In this document: positions 3,819 to 14,307 of the stretch, one piece after another
Layout of the letters: every line of letters starts with the position of its first letter
Position numbering within the stretch: the first letter of the stretch is position 1
Translations under genes and position numbers: made by a program
Assembly (NCBI GenBank): GCA_030424715.1
Contig: JAUHWH010000001.1
Span: 434,001-498,000, forward strand
DNA length: 64,000 bases
Direction of reading: 5' to 3'
Origin: Bdellovibrionia bacterium
GTDB taxonomy: Bacteria > Bdellovibrionota > Bdellovibrionia > Bdellovibrionales > JAGQZY01
The notes under the pieces: generated by a model
What the model saw: only the letters and a program-made list of their open reading frames with translations
What the model was told of the DNA's origin: nothing
Database searches by the model: none

Positions 3819-4105
3819 ACGGGGCCCCGGGAATCACCCCCCTCTATAATGAGTTGAGGCTCTCCTTCAACTCGGCATCCACAGCAACCATCATCCCACT
3901 TTCCCGACCCAACATTTGTCTCAATATGAATGTCTCGTATTGAGGCGAAGTCGATACATTTTTGGGGCCCCTAAATAACTCATGATAAAATAAATTGAAT
4001 CAAAGCGGGATGGGGCGGGCTTTCTAGACTAAAGGTTCTATCATGTTCCATAGCCTTAAGACCGATGAGACAAATGAGGAATATTACCTTTTTGAAGGAG
4101 GATAT
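3819..4105 (+). promoter_or_regulatory. Intergenic region upstream of flp with two inverted repeats
   Basis: A 287 bp stretch with no convincing gene. It contains a 7 bp perfect inverted repeat at 3851-3857/3867-3873 (GAGTTGA...TCAACTC, no T-tract after it) and a second at 3920-3926/3938-3944 (CTCAATA...TATTGAG). A candidate -10 TAGACT lies at 4025-4030 without a good -35. A near-perfect ribosome binding site (AAGGAGG, 4096-4102) precedes the flp start codon. I infer that the flp promoter and perhaps an operator lie here. Confidence 0.4.
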
Positions 4106-4279
4106 ATGAAAGAGGCATTAAAGAAACTATGGCAAGATGAGTCCGCGCAAGGTGCGACTGAGTATATTTTGATGCTCGTTGTGGTTGTTTCCATTGCGAT
4201 GGTTTTTAAAGATCAACTGAAGTCGATCATTACTGGAAAAGTGGAATCGCTAGGAACTAGCATCCAGTCTTTCGAGTAA
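4106..4279 (+). CDS. flp: Flp-type pilin (type IVb prepilin)
   Basis: 57 residues, the main pilin subunit of a Tad/Flp pilus, made as a prepilin and cleaved by the peptidase encoded nearby. The leader MKEALKKLWQDESA is followed by QGATEYILMLVVVVSIAMVF. With the conserved Glu at +5 (E19) and Tyr at +6, the cut falls after A14, an Ala where most Flp pilins have Gly. The hydrophobic helix spans about 20-35 and the mature tail is short. The frame stays open 21 codons upstream, but the AAGGAGG six bases before 4106 fixes the start. First gene of the tad run. Confidence 0.9.
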   Translation: MKEALKKLWQDESAQGATEYILMLVVVVSIAMVFKDQLKSIITGKVESLGTSIQSFE

Positions 4280-4297: not shown

Positions 4298-4519
4298 ATG
4301 ACAACAGAGTTAGTCCTTTTATTAGGCTTATTTGTATTTATTCTCGGGGGAGCATTTTTGGGCGATAAAGGTCCAAGAAAGGTTTTTGAAAACGCGGCAC
4401 CACGCTTAGGTGCCCGGGTTGAGCAGAACATCACGTTTGGGCATCGTTTTCCATTCAGAGATGGCAACCCCGTCGAGTGGGCAAAACCTAATGGAGGACC
4501 TCCGCTCGGGAGTCCTTAG
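4298..4519 (+). CDS. Small single-span protein in the tad locus, unknown function
   Basis: 73 residues. Residues 5-22 (LVLLLGLFVFILGGAFLG) form one membrane segment. The remainder is polar, with many Gly, Pro and Arg, and predicted outside the cytoplasm. It has no prepilin cleavage motif and I recognise no family. It sits 18 bp after flp and its stop overlaps the next gene's GTG start by one base, so it belongs to the tad operon. A role as a pilus anchor or minor subunit is possible but only inferred. Confidence 0.65.
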   Translation: MTTELVLLLGLFVFILGGAFLGDKGPRKVFENAAPRLGARVEQNITFGHRFPFRDGNPVEWAKPNGGPPLGSP

Positions 4520-5004
4520 TGTTTGTAACGTTAACCACATTATTACCGTTGAGTTATCTCGCTATTGCTGTGGTTGATGACCTTTGCTTTAGAAAGTTTC
4601 ACAACTGGCTTTTTATAGCCCTGACTCTGGTCGGCGTAATTTATGTGTCGTTCTTTGCAGAACTGACGGCGATGCAAGCCCTGGGCGGCTTTGTTGTCGG
4701 CGGAGCACTGATGTTGCCTTTGGTTATCATGGGCGCCATCGGCGCAGGGGATATGAAGTTTATGATGTGTTTTGGGATACTGATGGGGACACTCAAAATA
4801 TTCGAGATTTTCGTCTATGCTCTATTTTGGGGAGCATTGATTGGTGTTCTGCAATCGATGCTGGCCGGAAAGCTTCCGGAACTGCTCGCGAATATGAAGA
4901 TCATGATGCATAAACTGAAACCCTCCAAAACTCAGAAAATACCCTACACTATAGCCATCATGATGGCTTGGTTCAGTCACCGATTCTTTGGGGGGCTGCT
5001 ATGA
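4519..5004 (+). CDS. tadV: Prepilin peptidase of the Tad system (A24 family)
   Basis: 161-residue inner-membrane aspartic protease that removes leader peptides from Flp and TadE-like prepilins. The two catalytic aspartates are D21 (in AVVDDLCFRKFHN, the family's Dxxxx(I/F)xN region) and D78 in the GAGD signature (75-78). About four to five hydrophobic segments are present. The length fits TadV/CpaA, which lack the methylase domain of PilD. It starts with GTG overlapping the preceding stop and ends in an ATGA overlap with the next gene, so translation is probably coupled. Confidence 0.92.
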   Translation: MFVTLTTLLPLSYLAIAVVDDLCFRKFHNWLFIALTLVGVIYVSFFAELTAMQALGGFVVGGALMLPLVIMGAIGAGDMKFMMCFGILMGTLKIFEIFVYALFWGALIGVLQSMLAGKLPELLANMKIMMHKLKPSKTQKIPYTIAIMMAWFSHRFFGGLL

Positions 5005-5249
5005 GACGCAACAACCATGGACAGATCACGGTGGAAGCCGTCCTTATTTTGGCAATATTTGTCAGCACAACAATGGCCGGCACACGCCTTCTTAAAGATA
5101 AGAAAATACTATCTTCACTGGTTGAAGCCCCGTGGCAGCATCTATCGGGGATGATTGAAAATGGCGTTTGGGGACCACCCGAAACCGGTCGCGGTCTACA
5201 CCCCAACCATATCACTCGTCATGGTTCGCCCCAGGGGGACGCGCCATGA
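5001..5249 (+). CDS. Short TadE-like prepilin
   Basis: 82 residues. MRRNNHG/QITVEAVLILAIFVSTTMAG shows a class III leader: predicted cut after Gly7 with Glu at +5, then a hydrophobic helix. The mature part is short and ends in a Pro/His/Gly-rich tail. TadE-type minor pilins are usually longer (150-200 residues), so this is a small version. The ATG at 5001 overlaps the tadV stop (ATGA), and its own stop overlaps the next start (ATGA), which strongly supports this frame and the shortened N terminus. Confidence 0.75.
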   Translation: MRRNNHGQITVEAVLILAIFVSTTMAGTRLLKDKKILSSLVEAPWQHLSGMIENGVWGPPETGRGLHPNHITRHGSPQGDAP

Positions 5250-5827
5250 TCAAAAAGACACTGAAAAATGAAAAGGGGATTCTCACCTTAGATTTTATTT
5301 TTGCGAGCATGTTGGTGTTTGGTCTCTCGGCCATAATCTTCAGCTTTGGAATGACGCTTTCTGTGGTCGAAGTCGTGCAGTACATCTCCTTTGCCTCGGC
5401 TAGGAACTACTCCTTGGCCCATTTAGATGAAGAGATGCAAAGAGAGCGCGGGACGCAAAAGTACCAAGAATTGGTGACCAATCCTGCGATTCGCCCGATT
5501 CTTGAAAATGGCTGGTTCGCAGTTGAGCCCGTGATAATTTCGGACTTCAACGGTGAATACAATCCAGACCCGTCCTACGAATCGGACAACTTTATCGGAG
5601 CCCGCATTCCTTTTAGCGCACCCATTCTCTACAAAAGAATCCCACTGATTGGGACCACCGCAAGTGACCCAGAGGGGTTCACGGCCAACATCCAATCGTT
5701 TCTCGCGCGGGAGCCCACCTTTCGCGAATGCCAAAGCTTTGTCAATCAACGGGCGAATGCCTTTCAGAGCCTTAATTATATCCTTGTCATCGATCAAGTC
5801 GCTGCCATCATGGATAACGGGTGTTGA
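5246..5827 (+). CDS. TadE-like minor prepilin
   Basis: 193 residues. The N terminus MIKKTLKNEKG/ILTLDFIFASMLVFGLSAI has a basic leader, a predicted cut after G11 with Asp (instead of Glu) at +5, and a hydrophobic helix. The exported part has two cysteines near the C terminus (FRECQSF and DNGC), as often seen in TadE/TadF-type proteins. Start chosen by the ATGA overlap at 5246-5249; the open frame begins 26 codons earlier. The next gene starts one base after its stop. Probably a minor pilin or initiation-complex component. Confidence 0.78.
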   Translation: MIKKTLKNEKGILTLDFIFASMLVFGLSAIIFSFGMTLSVVEVVQYISFASARNYSLAHLDEEMQRERGTQKYQELVTNPAIRPILENGWFAVEPVIISDFNGEYNPDPSYESDNFIGARIPFSAPILYKRIPLIGTTASDPEGFTANIQSFLAREPTFRECQSFVNQRANAFQSLNYILVIDQVAAIMDNGC

Positions 5828-5828
5828 T

Positions 5829-6317
5829 ATGAAACGATCCCCAACGAATAGGCATTTGAAAAACGAAAAGGGGCTAGCAAGCATCGAAGCCACGGTCCTC
5901 TTATTGCTATTCACCTCCATGATCTACTACACGTTTGGATTTTTTGGTGTGGTTCACACTGGTGTGGTGCACAACATCCATTCTAGAACCTATCTCTTTG
6001 AGACCTTCAGGCACCGAAGCAACTTAATGTACTTTCGATCGAATCGCGCGTCCAACCCGTTACACTACTACAACACGATGACTCGCCTGCATGGAATAAA
6101 CACCGATACCGAAGATCTACCCACTCGGCAGATCTCAACAGAACGTCCGATCGCCATGGGCCGAGAGCTACCAGAAAGTGGTAGAAAGTCGGCAACACAT
6201 AATAGAGATATCTTTAATCGAATTCCCGCATCAGGTCGAAACACCTCGGTCTCAGTCAATCCGGTTTGGATAATGACGATGTATGGAATTTGTCTTAGCA
6301 ACCAGTGTGGAGGATAA
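5829..6317 (+). CDS. TadE/TadF-like minor prepilin
   Basis: 162 residues. Leader MKRSPTNRHLKNEKG, then LASIEATVLLLLFTSMIYYTFGFF: predicted cut after G15 and Glu at +5. It shares the LKNEKG leader ending with the preceding gene, which suggests duplication. Two cysteines close the protein (ICLSNQCGG). The open frame extends 60 codons upstream, but that part overlaps the previous gene and lacks the family features. ATG at 5829 is one base after the preceding stop. Third of three successive TadE-like genes; likely a minor pilus subunit. Confidence 0.75.
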   Translation: MKRSPTNRHLKNEKGLASIEATVLLLLFTSMIYYTFGFFGVVHTGVVHNIHSRTYLFETFRHRSNLMYFRSNRASNPLHYYNTMTRLHGINTDTEDLPTRQISTERPIAMGRELPESGRKSATHNRDIFNRIPASGRNTSVSVNPVWIMTMYGICLSNQCGG

Positions 6318-6319
6318 CC

Positions 6320-7189
6320 GTGGAACAAAACGAAACACGAACCTTATGGATTTCGATTGCGTCTGCGATTTTTGCGGTGGTGCTTTTGTACGGATGGGCG
6401 CAAGACAAGCGCGCGAACATGGCTCGCAAATTTGGCCAAACTAAAACCGTTGTGATCGCCCGCGAAGACATCCGGGAGTTTGACATTCTGGATGAATCAA
6501 AAATGGAAGTGGTTGAACGACCGGCTGACTTTATTCAACCCTCCGCCGTGCAAGACCCGACTCAGGTGGTCGGCCAGATCGCTTTGGCGCCCATGCGCAA
6601 GGGGGAACAAATTCTAGACACCAAGTTGGTATTCCCTGACAAAAGCACTGGGCTTTCTATGCAAGTTTCTCCCGGCAAGCGAGCCGTGACAGTCCCTGTT
6701 AACGAAGTCCAAGGGGTGGCCAAATTAATTAAACCTGGCGATCGCGTCGATATCGTCGCTGGTGTTGATGATGGCAAGGGCGTTAATAAAATTCGAAAAC
6801 TTCGCACTATTTTGCAAGATGTCACCGTGTTGGCAACAGGTCAGAGCATTGTGGATAATCTGCCTATCAAAGTGGTTCAAGGCGATAGTGACGACTACGA
6901 GATCCGCAATATGCGTGTCGAAAACAACTACGCGACCATCACCGTCGAGGTTTCGCCCACCGACGCTCAGCAATTGTTTTATCTGACGTCGATTTCAGCG
7001 CCGGTCTTTTTCACCCTTCGTAATCCAAATGATCGAGTGAAAATTCCCCTACCGACCTCTGATATCAACAATGTTTTAAATCGCAGACGCAAACGTACGC
7101 CCTCGCAAGTCACACCGAAAAAGAAACCGGTGAAGACATTACCGAGAGCCCCCAAGCCAGCAAAAAGAGGACGCTATGAAACTCTTTAA
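6320..7189 (+). CDS. cpaB: Flp pilus assembly protein CpaB/RcpC
   Basis: 289 residues; an inner-membrane-anchored periplasmic protein that works with the secretin. One N-terminal membrane segment (LWISIASAIFAVVLLYGW) is followed by the SAF domain (about 40-105, starting TVVIAREDIREFDIL) and the RcpC/CpaB domain (about 105-235, with GKRAVTVPVNEVQGVAKLIKPGDRVDI). The tail is basic and Pro-rich. I place the start at GTG 6320, which has GGAGG six bases upstream; an in-frame GTG at 6305 would sit before that site. It overlaps the secretin gene by 14 bp. Confidence 0.88.
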   Translation: MEQNETRTLWISIASAIFAVVLLYGWAQDKRANMARKFGQTKTVVIAREDIREFDILDESKMEVVERPADFIQPSAVQDPTQVVGQIALAPMRKGEQILDTKLVFPDKSTGLSMQVSPGKRAVTVPVNEVQGVAKLIKPGDRVDIVAGVDDGKGVNKIRKLRTILQDVTVLATGQSIVDNLPIKVVQGDSDDYEIRNMRVENNYATITVEVSPTDAQQLFYLTSISAPVFFTLRNPNDRVKIPLPTSDINNVLNRRRKRTPSQVTPKKKPVKTLPRAPKPAKRGRYETL

Positions 7190-8651
7190 AATGGTTCTAC
7201 ATATTCTTCTTGGGTCGCTAATGGCCTTGCCACTGGCTGCTCAGGACAGGCCCGTCGGAAAGAAGTACCTCACTCTCTATATCGGAGCTCAGCATCGGGA
7301 GGTTCTGTCTTTCATGCCCCCCGGGGCCGAGTTCGAGGGCGACCACAAAGGGTTTGTGACCATAAAATTGGATCGTGAGCGAAAAACACTGGATTTTGTG
7401 CCAACCCAAGAAGGCGTAAAAACCCTCACCATGCACGATCGCAAGGGGAAGAAGCTTTTTGAATATCGCATTGATATTCGCAAATCGGAACTCACCAAAG
7501 TGGTGCGAGAAGTTCGTGGACTTCTCCACGATATCGAAGGCATCACTGTAAAAATCGTTAACAACAAGGTCATCATAGATGGACAGGTTTTGCTCGCCCA
7601 AGATCTCAATCGAATCTATGGTGTGATCAAGCAATTTGAGGGCAAGGTGGCGTCACTCGTTGAAATCAATCCCATTGCCCAAAGAAAAATTGCTGAGATT
7701 ATTGAGAGGGACATTAACAACCCCGATATCGAAGTGCGGGCCGTCAACGGAAAGTTCATTTTAAAAGGAATCGCCAATAGTAAAGAAGAACGGGATAAAG
7801 CTGAGATCATTGCTAAAACCTATATGCCACCGCCAATTATTAACGAGGCGGAGGCCCAAGGCGTGGTTAAAAAACCAAAAGGCCCCGTGGTCCTTAACCT
7901 ACTGACCATTCGAGCCGGCCCTGCTCCTCCACCCGAAAAGATCATTCAACTGGTTGTTCACTATGTTGAGTTGAGCAAAAAATATCTACGAAGTTCTGCC
8001 TTTCAGTGGGCGCCTGGCCTCGAAGACAATACTGAGGTGCGCTTCACACAAGACTCGAGGGAGAACAATGATGGGATTGTCACGGAGATCTCGGGTATTA
8101 TCAGTAACCTTTTGCCAAAACTCAATGTTGCCAAACAGCATGGTTACGCAAAGATTCTGAAAAGCTCGTCGGTCACTACAAAAAACCGGAAGCCGGGTGT
8201 TCTCAACTCGACAACCGGCATTCCCTATGTGGAACGGCAGCCGGGCAACGTGGCGGTGAACAATACACGTTTTGCTCCCGTGGGTGTGCAGTCAACGATC
8301 ACGCCGACGATTATCAATCCTCGATCGGACGTGATTGAGCTGGATATGAAATTCACTATGACCACCCTTGTTGGACAGAGCAATACAGGGCCACAAATTT
8401 CCAACAACACGGTGAACACCGTGGTCAACGTTCGGAGTGGTCAAAGTGCCGCCATTGGTGGCCTGATTGCTGCTGACAGTGGAACGGAATACAACCCCGA
8501 CGCGAACCCCGACGCTTTGTTCAACCTCTATTCAGCGAAAGATTTTCGGAGCAACAAGAGCCAGTTTGTGGTGTTTGTCACTCCGATTATCAAGTCCTCC
8601 GCAGCGGCCGGGTCTGAGAAAATCAAACGAAAGTTTAGGCTCAGAGAATAG
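7176..8651 (+). CDS. cpaC: Tad outer-membrane secretin CpaC/RcpA
   Basis: 491 residues; forms the outer-membrane channel for the Flp pilus. Signal peptide about 1-22 (ending ALPLAAQ). An N-terminal pilus/secretin domain (about 25-105) is followed by two BON-like segments (about 115-160 and 165-215, the latter IEVRAVNGKFILKGIANS). The secretin core runs from about 240 to the end, including STTGIPYVERQPG, the beta-strands near PTIINPRSDVIELDMKFTMT, and VVNVRSGQSAAIGGLIAAD, typical of the CpaC branch. The start overlaps cpaB and has an AGAGGA site. Confidence 0.92.
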   Translation: MKLFKMVLHILLGSLMALPLAAQDRPVGKKYLTLYIGAQHREVLSFMPPGAEFEGDHKGFVTIKLDRERKTLDFVPTQEGVKTLTMHDRKGKKLFEYRIDIRKSELTKVVREVRGLLHDIEGITVKIVNNKVIIDGQVLLAQDLNRIYGVIKQFEGKVASLVEINPIAQRKIAEIIERDINNPDIEVRAVNGKFILKGIANSKEERDKAEIIAKTYMPPPIINEAEAQGVVKKPKGPVVLNLLTIRAGPAPPPEKIIQLVVHYVELSKKYLRSSAFQWAPGLEDNTEVRFTQDSRENNDGIVTEISGIISNLLPKLNVAKQHGYAKILKSSSVTTKNRKPGVLNSTTGIPYVERQPGNVAVNNTRFAPVGVQSTITPTIINPRSDVIELDMKFTMTTLVGQSNTGPQISNNTVNTVVNVRSGQSAAIGGLIAADSGTEYNPDANPDALFNLYSAKDFRSNKSQFVVFVTPIIKSSAAAGSEKIKRKFRLRE

Positions 8652-8694: not shown

Positions 8695-8739
8695 TTATTG
8701 TTTTTCCGATAACGACCGATAAGTCTAAGTGGAGGAAAT

Positions 8740-10947
8740 GTGGCAGTAAACCCCAATTGTTCAATCATTTCAGTGGTCGGCGGTAAAGGTGGCATCGGTA
8801 AAAGTGTCTTTACTGCGAATCTCGCTGTAGCCACTTGCGTCGAGTTGCGCACACCCTGTTTGTTAATCGATCTCGATCAAAAATCTTGTGGCGACCAAAA
8901 CTTTATCACCGGATTTCAAAAACCAAAAACAATCAATGACCTCTGCAACTTCACTGGCACACTCAACCCTCGCAACCTGAGTGCAGTACTGAACGTTCAT
9001 CCACAGATGCCTTTGCACTATCTCGCTGCCATAAAAAACCCGGGAGAGGTGTTCAGTGTTAACGACTCCGTGACTATTAAACAGATTCAAACATTGAGCA
9101 ATTTTTATAAATATATTTATATCGACCTCGGCAACCAGCTCGACGACTTACAGTACTCAGCCCTTGACCTGAGCACCTTGATTCTCAATGTCACCACTCC
9201 AGAAGTGCTCACAATCAACCAAACGCTGAGACTCCAGAATGAGCTGGCAGCCGCGACCATCCCGCAACCGATGGTGCAGGTCGTGGTCAATCGCTTTAGC
9301 AAATCAGGCCTCGCAGTACAAAGTATCGAAAAATCCTTGCGCAAGAAGGTTCTAGGTACCATACCCCAGGACGATATAACCGCAATGGCAGCCCTTAAAC
9401 GGGGCGTGCCTTTTGTCTTCGGCGCCAAACAAACCGCCATCTCAGCAAGCTACCACAATCTTGTGCGCACTCTTTCCGGTGGCCTGTTACAAAAGTTAAA
9501 AACGATTCACAAGCCAACGCTTGGCTTAAAAAAAGACAACGACGAACTCAGTGGCGGTGCTCCCAAGAAGAAGGGTGTCGATGCACGAACTCATCTTAAG
9601 ATGACAATTCACCGTCGTCTCATCAAAGATTTGAATCTAAAGAACGACGACATATCGAAAGCCAAAGAAGATCCGATTTTAGAAAAAAAGCTGCAAAATG
9701 ACGTCAAAGTTGGAATCGGAAAAATTCTCGACCAAGAAGCTCGTGGGATGCCGAACACAGATCGGAAACAAATTATTAAAGAAGTGGTTGATGAGGCCCT
9801 AGGACTCGGCCCTCTTGAAGACCTGTTGGCACTTGAATCCGTGTCCGAGATTATGGTGAACGGGTACGATAAAATTTTTATAGAAAAAAGTGGGAAAATC
9901 CAGCTCAGTAAAATTCACTTCACCTCGAATGTACAACTACGCAATGTCATCGAGAGAATTGTAAGCCCACTGGGGCGAAGGATCGACGAGAAAACCCCCT
10001 ATGTGGATGCCCGCCTTGAAGACGGTTCACGAGTGAATGCTATTATCGAGCCCTTATCAATTGATGGGCCGGCCCTCACCATTCGAAAGTTCAGAAAGGA
10101 CTCTTTCGGAGTGGACGAATATCTAAAATACAACTCCGCCACCAAGCAGATGATGGACTTTCTAAAGCTGTCTGTCAGTCAGGGTAAAAATATTATTATT
10201 TCCGGCGGAACCGGCTCTGGTAAAACCACCCTTCTCAACTGTATGTCATCTTTTATACCTTCTGACGAGCGGATTATCACCATTGAAGACGCGGCGGAAC
10301 TACAACTGAAACAAGAGCATGTGGTTCGTTTGGAAACTCGACCGGCCAACATGGAAGGCACGGGCGCCATAGCCATCCGAGATTTGGTGAAGAACTCACT
10401 TAGAATGCGTCCTGACCGAATTGTCGTCGGTGAGTGTCGTGATGGAGCCGCATTGGATATGCTGTCCGCAATGAACACAGGGCACGATGGTTCGATGACA
10501 ACTGTTCACGCCAACAAACCTAGAGAAGCCATTTCGCGCCTTGAAACCCTATGTATGATGGCGGGCATGGACCTACCGGCGAAAGCCATTCGCGAACAAA
10601 TTGCCGGTGCCGTGCATCTGATTGTGCAAATTTCAAGACTCTCTGATGGCAGTCGACGAGTGATGAACATCACTGAAGTGCAAGGGATCCAGGGTGATCA
10701 AGTGACTTTGCAAGACGTCTTTGCCTTTAAAGAGTCGGGTTATGATAAAAATAGAAAAATCGTTGGTAAATTTCTTTCTAAAGGTCTTATTCCTAAGTTC
10801 GTCCAAGACCTTAAAGAGAGAGGAGTGCCCATCCCAAAAGACCTTTTCTCCAACGAGGTTGATGTGACACCCCAACAAAAAGCCCCAAACCATCGGCCTT
10901 CTGGCATTCGACGCCCTAAGATGAAAAAGACAGGGAGTGAATCATGA
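8740..10947 (+). CDS. tadA: TadZ/CpaE-TadA/CpaF fusion: ParA-type ATPase joined to secretion ATPase
   Basis: 735 residues with two ATPase modules. Residues 1-250 are a MinD/ParA-type ATPase with the deviant Walker A KGGIGKS (16-22), the TadZ/CpaE part that places the pilus machine. There is no receiver-like N-terminal domain as in many TadZ proteins. A basic linker (about 255-285) leads to a full CpaF/TadA ATPase (about 290-690): an N-terminal helical domain, LESVSEIMVNGYD, Walker A GGTGSGKTT (489-497), the RPDRIVVGECRDGAALDML region and the HANKPREAISRLE segment. The two functions are usually separate genes. The frame is continuous. GTG start has GGAGG four bases upstream; the ATG at 8738 is out of frame and ends at once. 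The stop overlaps tadB (ATGA). Confidence 0.93.
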   Translation: MAVNPNCSIISVVGGKGGIGKSVFTANLAVATCVELRTPCLLIDLDQKSCGDQNFITGFQKPKTINDLCNFTGTLNPRNLSAVLNVHPQMPLHYLAAIKNPGEVFSVNDSVTIKQIQTLSNFYKYIYIDLGNQLDDLQYSALDLSTLILNVTTPEVLTINQTLRLQNELAAATIPQPMVQVVVNRFSKSGLAVQSIEKSLRKKVLGTIPQDDITAMAALKRGVPFVFGAKQTAISASYHNLVRTLSGGLLQKLKTIHKPTLGLKKDNDELSGGAPKKKGVDARTHLKMTIHRRLIKDLNLKNDDISKAKEDPILEKKLQNDVKVGIGKILDQEARGMPNTDRKQIIKEVVDEALGLGPLEDLLALESVSEIMVNGYDKIFIEKSGKIQLSKIHFTSNVQLRNVIERIVSPLGRRIDEKTPYVDARLEDGSRVNAIIEPLSIDGPALTIRKFRKDSFGVDEYLKYNSATKQMMDFLKLSVSQGKNIIISGGTGSGKTTLLNCMSSFIPSDERIITIEDAAELQLKQEHVVRLETRPANMEGTGAIAIRDLVKNSLRMRPDRIVVGECRDGAALDMLSAMNTGHDGSMTTVHANKPREAISRLETLCMMAGMDLPAKAIREQIAGAVHLIVQISRLSDGSRRVMNITEVQGIQGDQVTLQDVFAFKESGYDKNRKIVGKFLSKGLIPKFVQDLKERGVPIPKDLFSNEVDVTPQQKAPNHRPSGIRRPKMKKTGSES

Positions 10948-11843
10948 ATTTGGATTTCCTAGAAGGTCTCGCAATCCCCATTCCGCTCCCCGTCTTAACG
11001 GTCCTTATTGCGATTTGTGTGTTCGTGATTAGCTTTTTGTGGGTCGACCGAATTATCCATTTCATAAATCAGCGGAGTCTCGGGCAACGTGACGAAATTA
11101 TTAAATATCTTGAGCTTATGTTTGTGGACGTCGACAAAGAAAAATTAACCAAAACCCTTATGATCGGTAGTTTCGGACTTGGCGCCCTGTTTTTTGTTTT
11201 GTTTTGGCCCAATGTCGTCGCCGGACTGGCTTTTGGAGCGGTGTTCACTCTCTTGGGCTGGAACCTACCTAAACATATCGTCAAATATCTTTATGAAAAA
11301 CGTTGCAACAATTTTACCAATCAAATGGTGGATGCGATGACTATTCTCTCCAATGGTGTTCGCGCCGGACTCAGTGTCAACCAGTCAATGGATCGGGTGG
11401 TGAAAAACCTCCCTAACCCGATCAGCCAAGAGTTTCGTTTGGTCCTGTCCCAAAATCAGGTGGGCCAAACCATTGAAGATGCACTCAGCGAGCTGGGAGA
11501 ACGCATTCCGCGACCCGATGTGCAGATGTTTGTAACCTCTGTTAATATTTTAAAAGAAACCGGTGGAAACATGGCTGAAACTTTTCAAACGATCACATTT
11601 ACAATTCGAGAACGCCAAAAGGTGGAAAAAAAGATCGAGGCTCTCACCGCCCAGGGAATCATGCAGGGTATTATCATCAGCTGCATCCCCTTTATATTAA
11701 TGGCTGTGTTTTTTGCCATCGACCCCAATTACATTATGCCACTTTTTAATACCACCCTTGGCATTGTCGCACTGATGGTGGTGCTGACATTACAGATTAT
11801 TGGTGGCTTAATGATTAAAAAAGTTGTGACAATTAAGGTGTAG
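10944..11843 (+). CDS. tadB: Tad pilus inner-membrane platform protein TadB
   Basis: 299 residues with a T2SSF (GspF-like) domain (about 110-240), including AMTILSNGVRAGLSVNQSM and VNILKETGGNMAETFQTI, the TadB-type signature. Two N-terminal membrane segments (about 15-35 and 70-100) and two C-terminal ones (about 240-260 and 268-292) are visible. It anchors the secretion ATPase to the inner membrane. Tad systems normally have a second such protein, TadC, next to it; none is found here, so this protein may act alone or TadC is encoded elsewhere. Start overlaps the ATPase gene (ATGA). Confidence 0.9.
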   Translation: MNLDFLEGLAIPIPLPVLTVLIAICVFVISFLWVDRIIHFINQRSLGQRDEIIKYLELMFVDVDKEKLTKTLMIGSFGLGALFFVLFWPNVVAGLAFGAVFTLLGWNLPKHIVKYLYEKRCNNFTNQMVDAMTILSNGVRAGLSVNQSMDRVVKNLPNPISQEFRLVLSQNQVGQTIEDALSELGERIPRPDVQMFVTSVNILKETGGNMAETFQTITFTIRERQKVEKKIEALTAQGIMQGIIISCIPFILMAVFFAIDPNYIMPLFNTTLGIVALMVVLTLQIIGGLMIKKVVTIKV

Positions 11844-11846
11844 CTC

Positions 11847-13538
11847 TTGAAAAAGCAAATATTTACTTTTCTCATTCTGATTTTTCTCGCCGGCGCAAGC
11901 TCCGCAATGGTCAACCTACGGAACGGCAGTTACAATGAAAAGTGGATCGACTTCACAGACCCGCAGGCTGGTATTGAATTATCGATCGAGAGACACTACA
12001 GCTCTCGGTCATTGTTCGAGGGTGTTTTTGGTTTTGGGTGGTGTTCGAAGCTCGAAACCAAGTTGACTATCACCTCCGACGGTATCATCAACCTGGTTGA
12101 GTGCGGTGGTGGTCTCGAGGTCACATACTATCCGAAGGACTTCGACATCAAGTCCTCAGAACAAACCATCGCTCGTATCGTTGAGCACGCCCGGAAAAAT
12201 CAAAAATTGAGTACCAACGACTTATCAAACCTAAGAGCTCAGCTACGATCCAACACCAAATTGAGATTCGAAGAAGCCAACAAACTGAAGTTGGTCAGCA
12301 TTCAAAAGATAAGAGCTAAAAAGAACGTTTTTATTTCGAAATCAAAAGGTTTCGAAAAAATCACTTTTAATGGCAGCTATTACGAACGTTTGCGAGCCGA
12401 CGGCTCTTCCCAAAGATTCAACAAAAATGGCCAATTGATCCGCCTGACAAACCGTCTCGGACTCTTTATCAGTATTCATTACAAAGGGCGGCGCATTGGC
12501 TTCTTGGCTGACAACAAAGGACGACGCCTCAACTTTCAATATGGGACTGACGGCAAGCTGCAAAAAATATCCAATGGACAAGGCTTGAGTGCTCTCTACC
12601 AATTTGAGGGTGAAAACTTGGTGCAAGTCACTAATATGTGGTCAAAAACCTATCAGTTCAGATATGACGTCAACCATAACATGACGCAAGTCAGTTTTCC
12701 GGACAAAACCACGATGGTGATGTCTTACGACCTCGCCAAGGATTGGATTAAAAGTTATACCAATCGCAAAGGTTGCAAAGAAACCTTCAATTTCGTCCTC
12801 GGAAAAGCCGACCCTCAAAACAACTACACGGGCTTGTTTGCAAGACAGTGTCCCGGAGAGAAGAAAAAGGTGGGACGACATGAGTTTTGGTACAAAAGCT
12901 ATGCTTTTTCAAAAGACAAGTACCTCCACCGAGTTCAAGAAAACTATGATAGCGCCTTTAAAAACGTCTATTTCCACCCCTATCTCGGCAAGCCTGTTTC
13001 GATCCGTGAGAACGAGATCTATCAAGGTTTCGCCTATGCACTCAGTGGTTTGATCAGCAAACGAGAACAGAAACTCTACACCGAAAAAAATAGTTTAATT
13101 AGCTGGAACAAGGTGGCTTTCAAATACAACCCCAACAGTACACAAATTCGAGAGGCCCATAAGTTTGTTTTGAATACCGCAGGGAAAGTAACCTCTAACT
13201 CTAAAACCACCTACAAGTACAGTAAGTACGGGCTACTCTCTAAGGCTCTAGACCGAAAAGGCACCTTTGTGAGTGTCTCCTACAACGAAAACGGGAAAGT
13301 TAGCACCCTATACAACAACAGGAAACAAACCTTAAAAATGAAATATCAACCTGGTGTGGAAAAGCCTGTTGAAATTGAGCAAGTGAATGTTGGCACGGTA
13401 AAAATCACCTACGAAGCCGATGGTGAAGTGGCTTCTATTGAAGAAGAGGGCAAGCGCAATATTGCCACCTCGGTTGTTGAAAAGTTCATAGAAATGGTGA
13501 GCTTTCTCGGTCCACTCGGAGAAAGCCTCAGCATTTAA
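11847..13538 (+). CDS. Exported RHS/YD-repeat protein coupled to tadB
   Basis: 563 residues, TTG start at 11847 only three bases after the tadB stop. Signal peptide about 1-20 (QIFTFLILIFLAGASSA). The N terminus (about 25-75) resembles the DUF6531 start of RHS proteins: DPQAGIELSIERHYSSRS followed by FGFGWCS. YD-like repeats follow, such as RLTNRLGLFISIHY, FQYGTDGKLQKISN, YRFDYDV-like (YQFRYDVNHNMTQVSF) and VSYNENGKVSTLYNN. It lacks the RHS core cap and any C-terminal toxin domain. A surface or adhesin-like role linked to the pilus is plausible from position only. Confidence 0.8.
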   Translation: MKKQIFTFLILIFLAGASSAMVNLRNGSYNEKWIDFTDPQAGIELSIERHYSSRSLFEGVFGFGWCSKLETKLTITSDGIINLVECGGGLEVTYYPKDFDIKSSEQTIARIVEHARKNQKLSTNDLSNLRAQLRSNTKLRFEEANKLKLVSIQKIRAKKNVFISKSKGFEKITFNGSYYERLRADGSSQRFNKNGQLIRLTNRLGLFISIHYKGRRIGFLADNKGRRLNFQYGTDGKLQKISNGQGLSALYQFEGENLVQVTNMWSKTYQFRYDVNHNMTQVSFPDKTTMVMSYDLAKDWIKSYTNRKGCKETFNFVLGKADPQNNYTGLFARQCPGEKKKVGRHEFWYKSYAFSKDKYLHRVQENYDSAFKNVYFHPYLGKPVSIRENEIYQGFAYALSGLISKREQKLYTEKNSLISWNKVAFKYNPNSTQIREAHKFVLNTAGKVTSNSKTTYKYSKYGLLSKALDRKGTFVSVSYNENGKVSTLYNNRKQTLKMKYQPGVEKPVEIEQVNVGTVKITYEADGEVASIEEEGKRNIATSVVEKFIEMVSFLGPLGESLSI

Positions 13539-13574: not shown

Positions 13575-13934
13575 CTAATGCGGAGGCTGGTCAGACAACT
13601 CTGAGTCTATTGACTCTTCGGCCTTCTCCCATTTTTTGTTCAGTGACTTCTTGAGTTCCTTCAACTTGACGTTGAGACGCTCCCCTGGACGCTGGGATGA
13701 GCTGTGTTGCTCTATGTACTTCGATTGCACATGACCGGTGATCCGATTGTACTGGACGCCAATAAAATGAGCGGCCCCCTGGGCAACACCCTGGATATGA
13801 CCGGCCAGTTGTGAGTGATGGGTCAGTTCTTGCAGCTTTTGCTCGAGAGTGGTTGGTCCCACCTTTACCTGTAAGAGAATAACTACAATCACAGTATAAA
13901 TTGTCATTTTAATAAGAAAAAATAGGTCACCCAT
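13575..13934 (-). CDS. Small single-span protein, unknown function
   Basis: 119 residues. Residues 4-24 (LFFLIKMTIYTVIVVILLQVK) form a membrane segment or uncleaved signal. The remainder is hydrophilic, with a central part rich in His, Gln and Gly and a charged C-terminal helix (VKLKELKKSLNKKWEKAEES). No family recognised. The start overlaps the stop of the upstream receiver-protein gene by 8 bp, so the two are translated from one message and may act together. Confidence 0.65.
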   Translation of the reverse strand: MGDLFFLIKMTIYTVIVVILLQVKVGPTTLEQKLQELTHHSQLAGHIQGVAQGAAHFIGVQYNRITGHVQSKYIEQHSSSQRPGERLNVKLKELKKSLNKKWEKAEESIDSELSDQPPH

Positions 13935-14307
13935 ATTTTAGCTCTCCACCATCTTGAAAAGCACCTTCAGTCAGTGCAATCAGCTTTAGAGTTTCGAATG
14001 GTTTCGGCAAAAAGTCAAAGCAACCGGCTTCGATGGCTTTATCTCGGATCCAATCCTCATCAACAGCAGACACCGCTATCACTGGCACATCGGGCGCGAA
14101 CTCTTTAATAAGAACCGTCGCTTCAAAACCATTTTTCTTTGGCATCGCAATATCCATCACAATGACATCCGGTTGCAAGTCACGCGCTTTTTCTACGGCT
14201 TCTTCACCATCAAAAGCACCATCAAGCACTGTGTGCCCCGCTTTTTCAAAAGCTTGTTTACAGACGAGATGGATGAAGGACGAATCATCAACGATTAAAA
14301 CTTTCAT
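13927..14307 (-). CDS. Stand-alone response regulator receiver (CheY-like)
   Basis: 126 residues, a single receiver domain. The acidic pair D7-D8 (IVDDSS), the phosphorylation site D52 (VIVMDIAMPKKNG), the conserved Ser S80 and Lys K102 (FLPKP) are all present, so it should be phosphorylated by a histidine kinase. There is no output domain and no kinase gene nearby. TATAAT ends six bases before the ATG, so the mRNA may be leaderless. The following 119-residue membrane protein overlaps it and could be its partner; that is inference. Confidence 0.92.
   Translation of the reverse strand: MKVLIVDDSSFIHLVCKQAFEKAGHTVLDGAFDGEEAVEKARDLQPDVIVMDIAMPKKNGFEATVLIKEFAPDVPVIAVSAVDEDWIRDKAIEAGCFDFLPKPFETLKLIALTEGAFQDGGELKYG

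Follow-up and report, generated by a model that had tools for sequence, protein, structure and literature searches.

The window, by which we mean the whole stretch of 64,000 nucleotides of Bdellovibrionota DNA analysed here, carries on its forward strand a Tad operon in which tadZ and tadA are joined in a single gene. The operon and its downstream neighbour comprise the following.

4043-4279, forward: Flp-type pilin (PF16982)
4519-5004, forward: TadV/CpaA prepilin peptidase (PF01478)
4968-6317, forward: three overlapping open reading frames in the place of TadE/F-like pseudopilins, assigned by position and an N-terminal hydrophobic segment only, with no Pfam match
6305-7189, forward: RcpC/CpaB (TIGR03177, above cut-off)
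7176-8651, forward: RcpA/CpaC secretin (PF00263 and BON)
8740-10947, forward: tadZ-tadA fusion gene, one open reading frame of 735 amino acids, with the same frame in 90 distinct relatives
10944-11843, forward: TadB inner-membrane platform protein, T2SSF (PF00482)
11847-13538, forward: RHS-repeat protein (PF20148, PF05593) occupying, by conserved order, the position that Bd0109 has in the hit locus, where TadC would be expected

The fusion thus shares its Tad operon with genes for the secretin, CpaB, the platform protein and the Flp pilin, and the order Flp-TadV-RcpC-RcpA-fusion-TadB is conserved among relatives, with TadV missing in some; the prepilin peptidase is present in the window (4519-5004) and in many Bdellovibrionales. 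Published accounts of the hit (host-interaction) locus of Bdellovibrio list Bd0113/Bd0112 (RcpC, RcpA), Bd0111 (TadA), Bd0110 (TadB) and Bd0109 (RHS) (PMC5430801, PMC3818213), and the Tad operon of the window is the region adjoining that locus. Among relatives in which the downstream flank is included in the sequence, a Bd0109-like RHS-repeat protein also lies 3' of tadB in L038-L075; in other Tad operons tadC is found there. Genes resembling tadC were seen far from the Tad operon in the window's genome (G000:C15:288701) and in a complete genome (G017:C1:468388). A complete CheY-like receiver is encoded on the reverse strand at 13927-14307, a few hundred bases from the operon, and occupies a similar place in many relatives. 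The window's genome also encodes two more, unfused CpaF-like ATPases (C15:105903-107024 and C17:38213-39118), both of which fall outside the fused clade.

The fusion gene itself is laid out as follows.

8731-8735, forward: Shine-Dalgarno-like GGAGG upstream of the GTG start, from the sequence
8740-9513, forward: TadZ module of MinD/ParA fold, residues 1-258, without receiver domain (Pfam, tree, profile, AF2, fold match)
8785-8805, forward: deviant Walker A KGGIGKS, residues 16-22, both lysines invariant in the aligned fused proteins
9451-9513, forward: last helix of the TadZ module (about residues 238-258), a candidate membrane-contact helix weakly indicated by mild amphipathicity
9514-9582, forward: disordered linker, residues 259-281, with low pLDDT, loose constraint by pN and variable length among relatives
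9583-10854, forward: TadA/CpaF motor module, residues 282-705, with three-helix bundle, NTD and ATPase domain
10204-10230, forward: motor Walker A GGTGSGKTT, residues 489-497, from the sequence

The sequence-only reading had reported a single uninterrupted frame of 735 codons with one nucleotide-binding motif at residues 16-22 and a second at 489-497, and we find frame and motifs precisely as it claimed: the frame opens with GTG, holds no internal stop, shows neither stop nor frameshift between residues 250 and 290, and ends in a stop codon that shares the bases ATGA (10944-10947) with the ATG of tadB. From stop to stop the frame measures 744 codons and therefore leaves no space for a receiver domain, the absence of which had also been remarked upon and holds for every fused relative examined. 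Pfam recognizes CbiA/MinD/ParA at residues 10-217 (E 9e-11) and T2SSE at residues 354-640 (E 7e-62). The C-terminal half matches the CpaF structures of C. crescentus (E 6e-124), with 9e24 as the fold match of the motor half (E 5e-47), and GGTGSGKT together with H582 and H590 is invariant. The fusion scores 328 bits against TIGR03819, under the curated NCBIfam cut-off of 373 bits; that cut-off was exceeded in only one of 14 control genomes, from which we take TIGR03819 to describe a narrow subfamily. The AF2 model is confident for the Z module (pLDDT 92.5), disordered at residues 259-278 (pLDDT below 50) and folded again in the motor, and the hydrophobic moment of the candidate membrane helix reaches 0.48, which is not outstanding.

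The N-terminal module is TadZ, a name given on the strength of its sequence profile, its place in the tree and its position. Fold alone cannot supply it, since a Foldseek search with the Z module ranks MinD, the C. tepidum ParA-family protein 3ea0 and FlhG first, with no TadZ structure among the top 50. That ranking, and a MinD-type Walker A that is intact here and absent from sampled unfused TadZ, would suit a captured MinD or FlhG with another job, such as cell-division or flagellar placement. We give such a capture hardly any credence: a profile of unfused TadZ scores 136 bits against the module, as compared to 35-38 bits for FlhG-like and other MinD-like profiles built from the same phylum; TadZ is the best profile for all 89 of 89 fused Z modules; the tree joins the module to TadZ (96/95); and the module occupies the place of tadZ, between the secretin/pseudopilin genes and tadA. 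With the C-terminal half being CpaF, both module identities first proposed for this protein are borne out.

The fusion is neither a chance event nor an assembly error, because the same fused frame recurs in relatives 79% identical to the window's protein (L009/L038, the nearest, which are fused too) and in 90 distinct sequences altogether. These stop-free frames, checked on the DNA, are 670-917 amino acids long and span about 20 families of Bdellovibrionota, including Bdellovibrio and the Bacteriovoracaceae; nearly all of 60 relatives align with the fusion from end to end. A genome search found matches to the fusion in every one of 291 genomes of Bdellovibrionota, from 163 genera, with the best E below 1e-150 in 267 of the 291 by our count from the table; this search reads through stop codons, and the fused frames were therefore verified on the DNA itself. 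A search for the same module order in one gene has thus found it phylum-wide, and relatives with two intact genes at this locus, the outcome that would have told against the fusion, were looked for among the Bdellovibrionota relatives examined and none was encountered. In three genomes (G063, G067 and G211) the search found no fused copy, and in the last two only CpaF paralogues were found. G063 carries an FHA-TadA protein of 464 amino acids (L236). The apparent splits within the phylum were accounted for by contig ends, by a stretch of N (L232) or, in one metagenome-assembled genome, by a frameshift, and five rows labelled unfused inside the fused clade of a first tree were loci cut by borders or contig ends. 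The frameshift (L069:6001-8206) lies within the TadZ half and may be an assembly error or real.

A strict 1:1 ratio of TadZ to motor, which the sequence-only reading had proposed, follows from the sequence, given that no further TadZ-like gene was found in ten genomes searched, where the next MinD-like matches had E values of 2e-9 or weaker; in the complete genome G017 the fusion was the sole match in the TadZ search.

Elsewhere the two genes are adjacent and distinct, in keeping with the earlier statement that they are normally separate: in Chloroflexota, Burkholderia plasmids, Rhodobacter, Photobacterium and Ruminococcus, tadZ lies directly 5' of tadA as a gene of its own. Most unfused TadZ proteins of these groups carry a receiver domain, which is not strictly defining for TadZ, however, since some separate TadZ also lack it (L205; Photobacterium pPHDD1). 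Frames of about 900 amino acids with both modules had suggested a second fusion in Chloroflexota, and on the DNA the two modules proved to be distinct genes divided by stop codons; those plasmid-borne matches spanning both modules that we inspected were likewise two genes. In trees of limited outgroup sampling, without Myxococcota, 38 fused sequences form one group by their TadA halves (95/96) and 30 fused modules form one group by their TadZ halves (96/84). Because each tree yields a single fused clade, the simplest history is one ancient fusion of neighbouring genes accompanied by loss of the receiver domain. The gap between tadZ and tadA in unfused systems is often only 11-58 nucleotides, so that one small event, the loss of a stop between adjacent co-translated genes, would suffice, and the fusion might be a neutral accident of the operon that leaves TadZ and TadA acting as they do elsewhere, as a poorly constrained linker would allow. 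We consider this unlikely, in view of the absence of even one reversal in about 20 families, though a single stop in the loose linker would split the protein, and of a fused clade that has shed the receiver domain as well and carries residues missing from its unfused relatives.

Both modules are under strong purifying selection (omega about 0.004-0.06 where dS was usable) and the linker is loosely constrained, with pN of 0.04-0.5 and a length of 18-56 amino acids among fused relatives. A disordered, accessible linker might also be where one chain is made and two are used, the fusion being a precursor from which proteolysis or internal initiation frees TadA. An ATG, GTG or TTG codon does lie near the junction in 78 of the 90 sequences, but a Shine-Dalgarno-like motif precedes a junction start codon in only two of the 90, M288 is not conserved (6 of 40) and the linker holds no conserved cleavage motif. 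Internal initiation, looked for at the junction in all 90 sequences, is thus not conserved, and we regard a precursor as very unlikely.

What most sets the fused TadZ modules apart from free ones is the state of their nucleotide-binding site. All 88 aligned fused modules have the P-loop lysine, K21, and none of 35 sampled unfused TadZ does; its place there is taken by Cys (21 sequences), Thr (8), Ala (3), Val (2) or Ser (1). The second switch-I aspartate, D46, is likewise found in all 88 fused modules as compared to eight of the 35 unfused proteins, and the signature lysine K16 occurs in both groups. In MinD/ParA proteins these conserved residues bind nucleotide and support hydrolysis. For that reason the fused TadZ should be a working ATPase switch, and the sampled free TadZ look degenerate. 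The reduced genomes of one family, f14 (L226, L227, L228, L231), have a shortened Z module with P-loops of SGKS/SGKT type and no KGG signature, and there the fusion persists with its motor intact, which suggests that the ATP switch is dispensable in places. Two observations therefore go beyond the initial description of this locus: the fusion extends through the phylum, Bdellovibrio included, and its TadZ half retains residues that unfused relatives have lost.

Our favoured interpretation, which we hold to be likely, is that the fusion is the motor of a Tad (Flp, type IVc) pilus with a built-in, ATPase-competent TadZ module for recruitment or anchoring in a 1:1 ratio. The CpaF protein of C. 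crescentus forms a hexamer of C2 symmetry, and its three-helix bundles project from the top of the ring (PMC11300603). Six fused chains would assemble as a CpaF-like hexamer, with six TadZ modules hanging from the three-helix bundle on tethers of 18-56 residues. The tethers would thus originate at the ring top, near the place assigned to free CpaE: the in situ model from Caulobacter fits six CpaE dimers around the CpaF hexamer (12:6), with a shift on piliation (PMC13170226). Driven by ATP, the TadZ modules of a hexamer could then form three pairs and so anchor the motor at, or recruit it to, the inner-membrane platform; the conserved residues should permit hydrolysis, which would release the motor. 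Contacts between CpaE dimers are ascribed to their REC domains (PMC13170226), and the covalent link may here replace the receiver domain, elsewhere proposed to hold the dimers in a ring, so that this domain could be lost. Fused 1:1, and with no other TadZ-like protein in the ten genomes searched, the machine would have to make do with six TadZ at most. The published 12:6 model of CpaE and CpaF in situ is out of reach for a strict 6:6 fusion, which in this respect challenges the fit made in Caulobacter.

As to what the module does for the motor, the best reading of the sequences appears to be that it would hold the motor at the inner membrane or bring it to the platform, and tethering of the motor to a pole is possible. 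A more ambitious proposal, which we put forward tentatively, is a double-ATPase motor, in which the hydrolysis-competent TadZ switch of each subunit would pair with that of its neighbour and gate the hexamer, on or off or between extension and retraction, when prey is touched, rather than only marking the pole as a degenerate free TadZ does.

Prey contact probably involves the pilus that this motor drives. TadC is required for attachment and killing (PMC6561027), flp genes are required for invasion (PMC5430801), and Bd0111 has been detected by mass spectrometry in the attack phase (PMC5430801). From the requirements for TadC and the flp genes it would follow that the fusion protein is likely needed for predation as well; we found no direct test of Bd0111 in predation in the literature. 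In two Bdellovibrio genomes the fused frame contains an exact match to TadA RT-F, a primer published for bd0111, and the Bd0111 "TadA" of B. bacteriovorus therefore belongs to the fused family. With its ATPase residues retained, the hydrolysis of ATP by TadZ becomes a question that can be asked of one genetically tractable protein, Bd0111, and the fusion amounts to a natural experiment on an open point, the interaction and ratio of TadZ/CpaE and the motor.

In earlier work Bd0111 was named TadA only and TadZ was not reported (PMC5430801, PMC3818213), whereas a fused frame is found here; a search of literature available without subscription turned up no published account of TadZ/CpaE in Bdellovibrio or of fused forms. 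The Kil system of Myxococcus is a Tad-like prey-killing machine near which its authors placed the Bdellovibrio systems (PMC8460266). Its KilF, which we compared by description, is a CpaF-type ATPase with FHA proteins nearby, and a TadZ fusion is not mentioned (PMC8460266). With the TadZ/CpaE proteins of E. rectale and C. crescentus and the unfused ones of Chloroflexota and Burkholderia, the N-terminal module shares the MinD/ParA fold and the position 5' of tadA; it differs from them in being fused, in lacking the receiver domain and in having the P-loop lysine and the second switch-I aspartate. With C. crescentus CpaF (PDB 9e24, 8rjf, 8rkd) the fusion has the whole motor in common, namely the three-helix bundle, NTD, ATPase domain, Walker A and His motifs, and it departs from CpaF at the N-terminus, where it carries a TadZ module and the published classes carry nothing (class I, bare), a disordered tail (class II) or an FHA domain (class III) (PMC12019362). 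A CpaF fused to TadZ is not among these classes, and we view it as a variant of the known Tad machine: a fourth CpaF architecture, specific to this phylum and found in bacteria for which the pilus probably serves predation.
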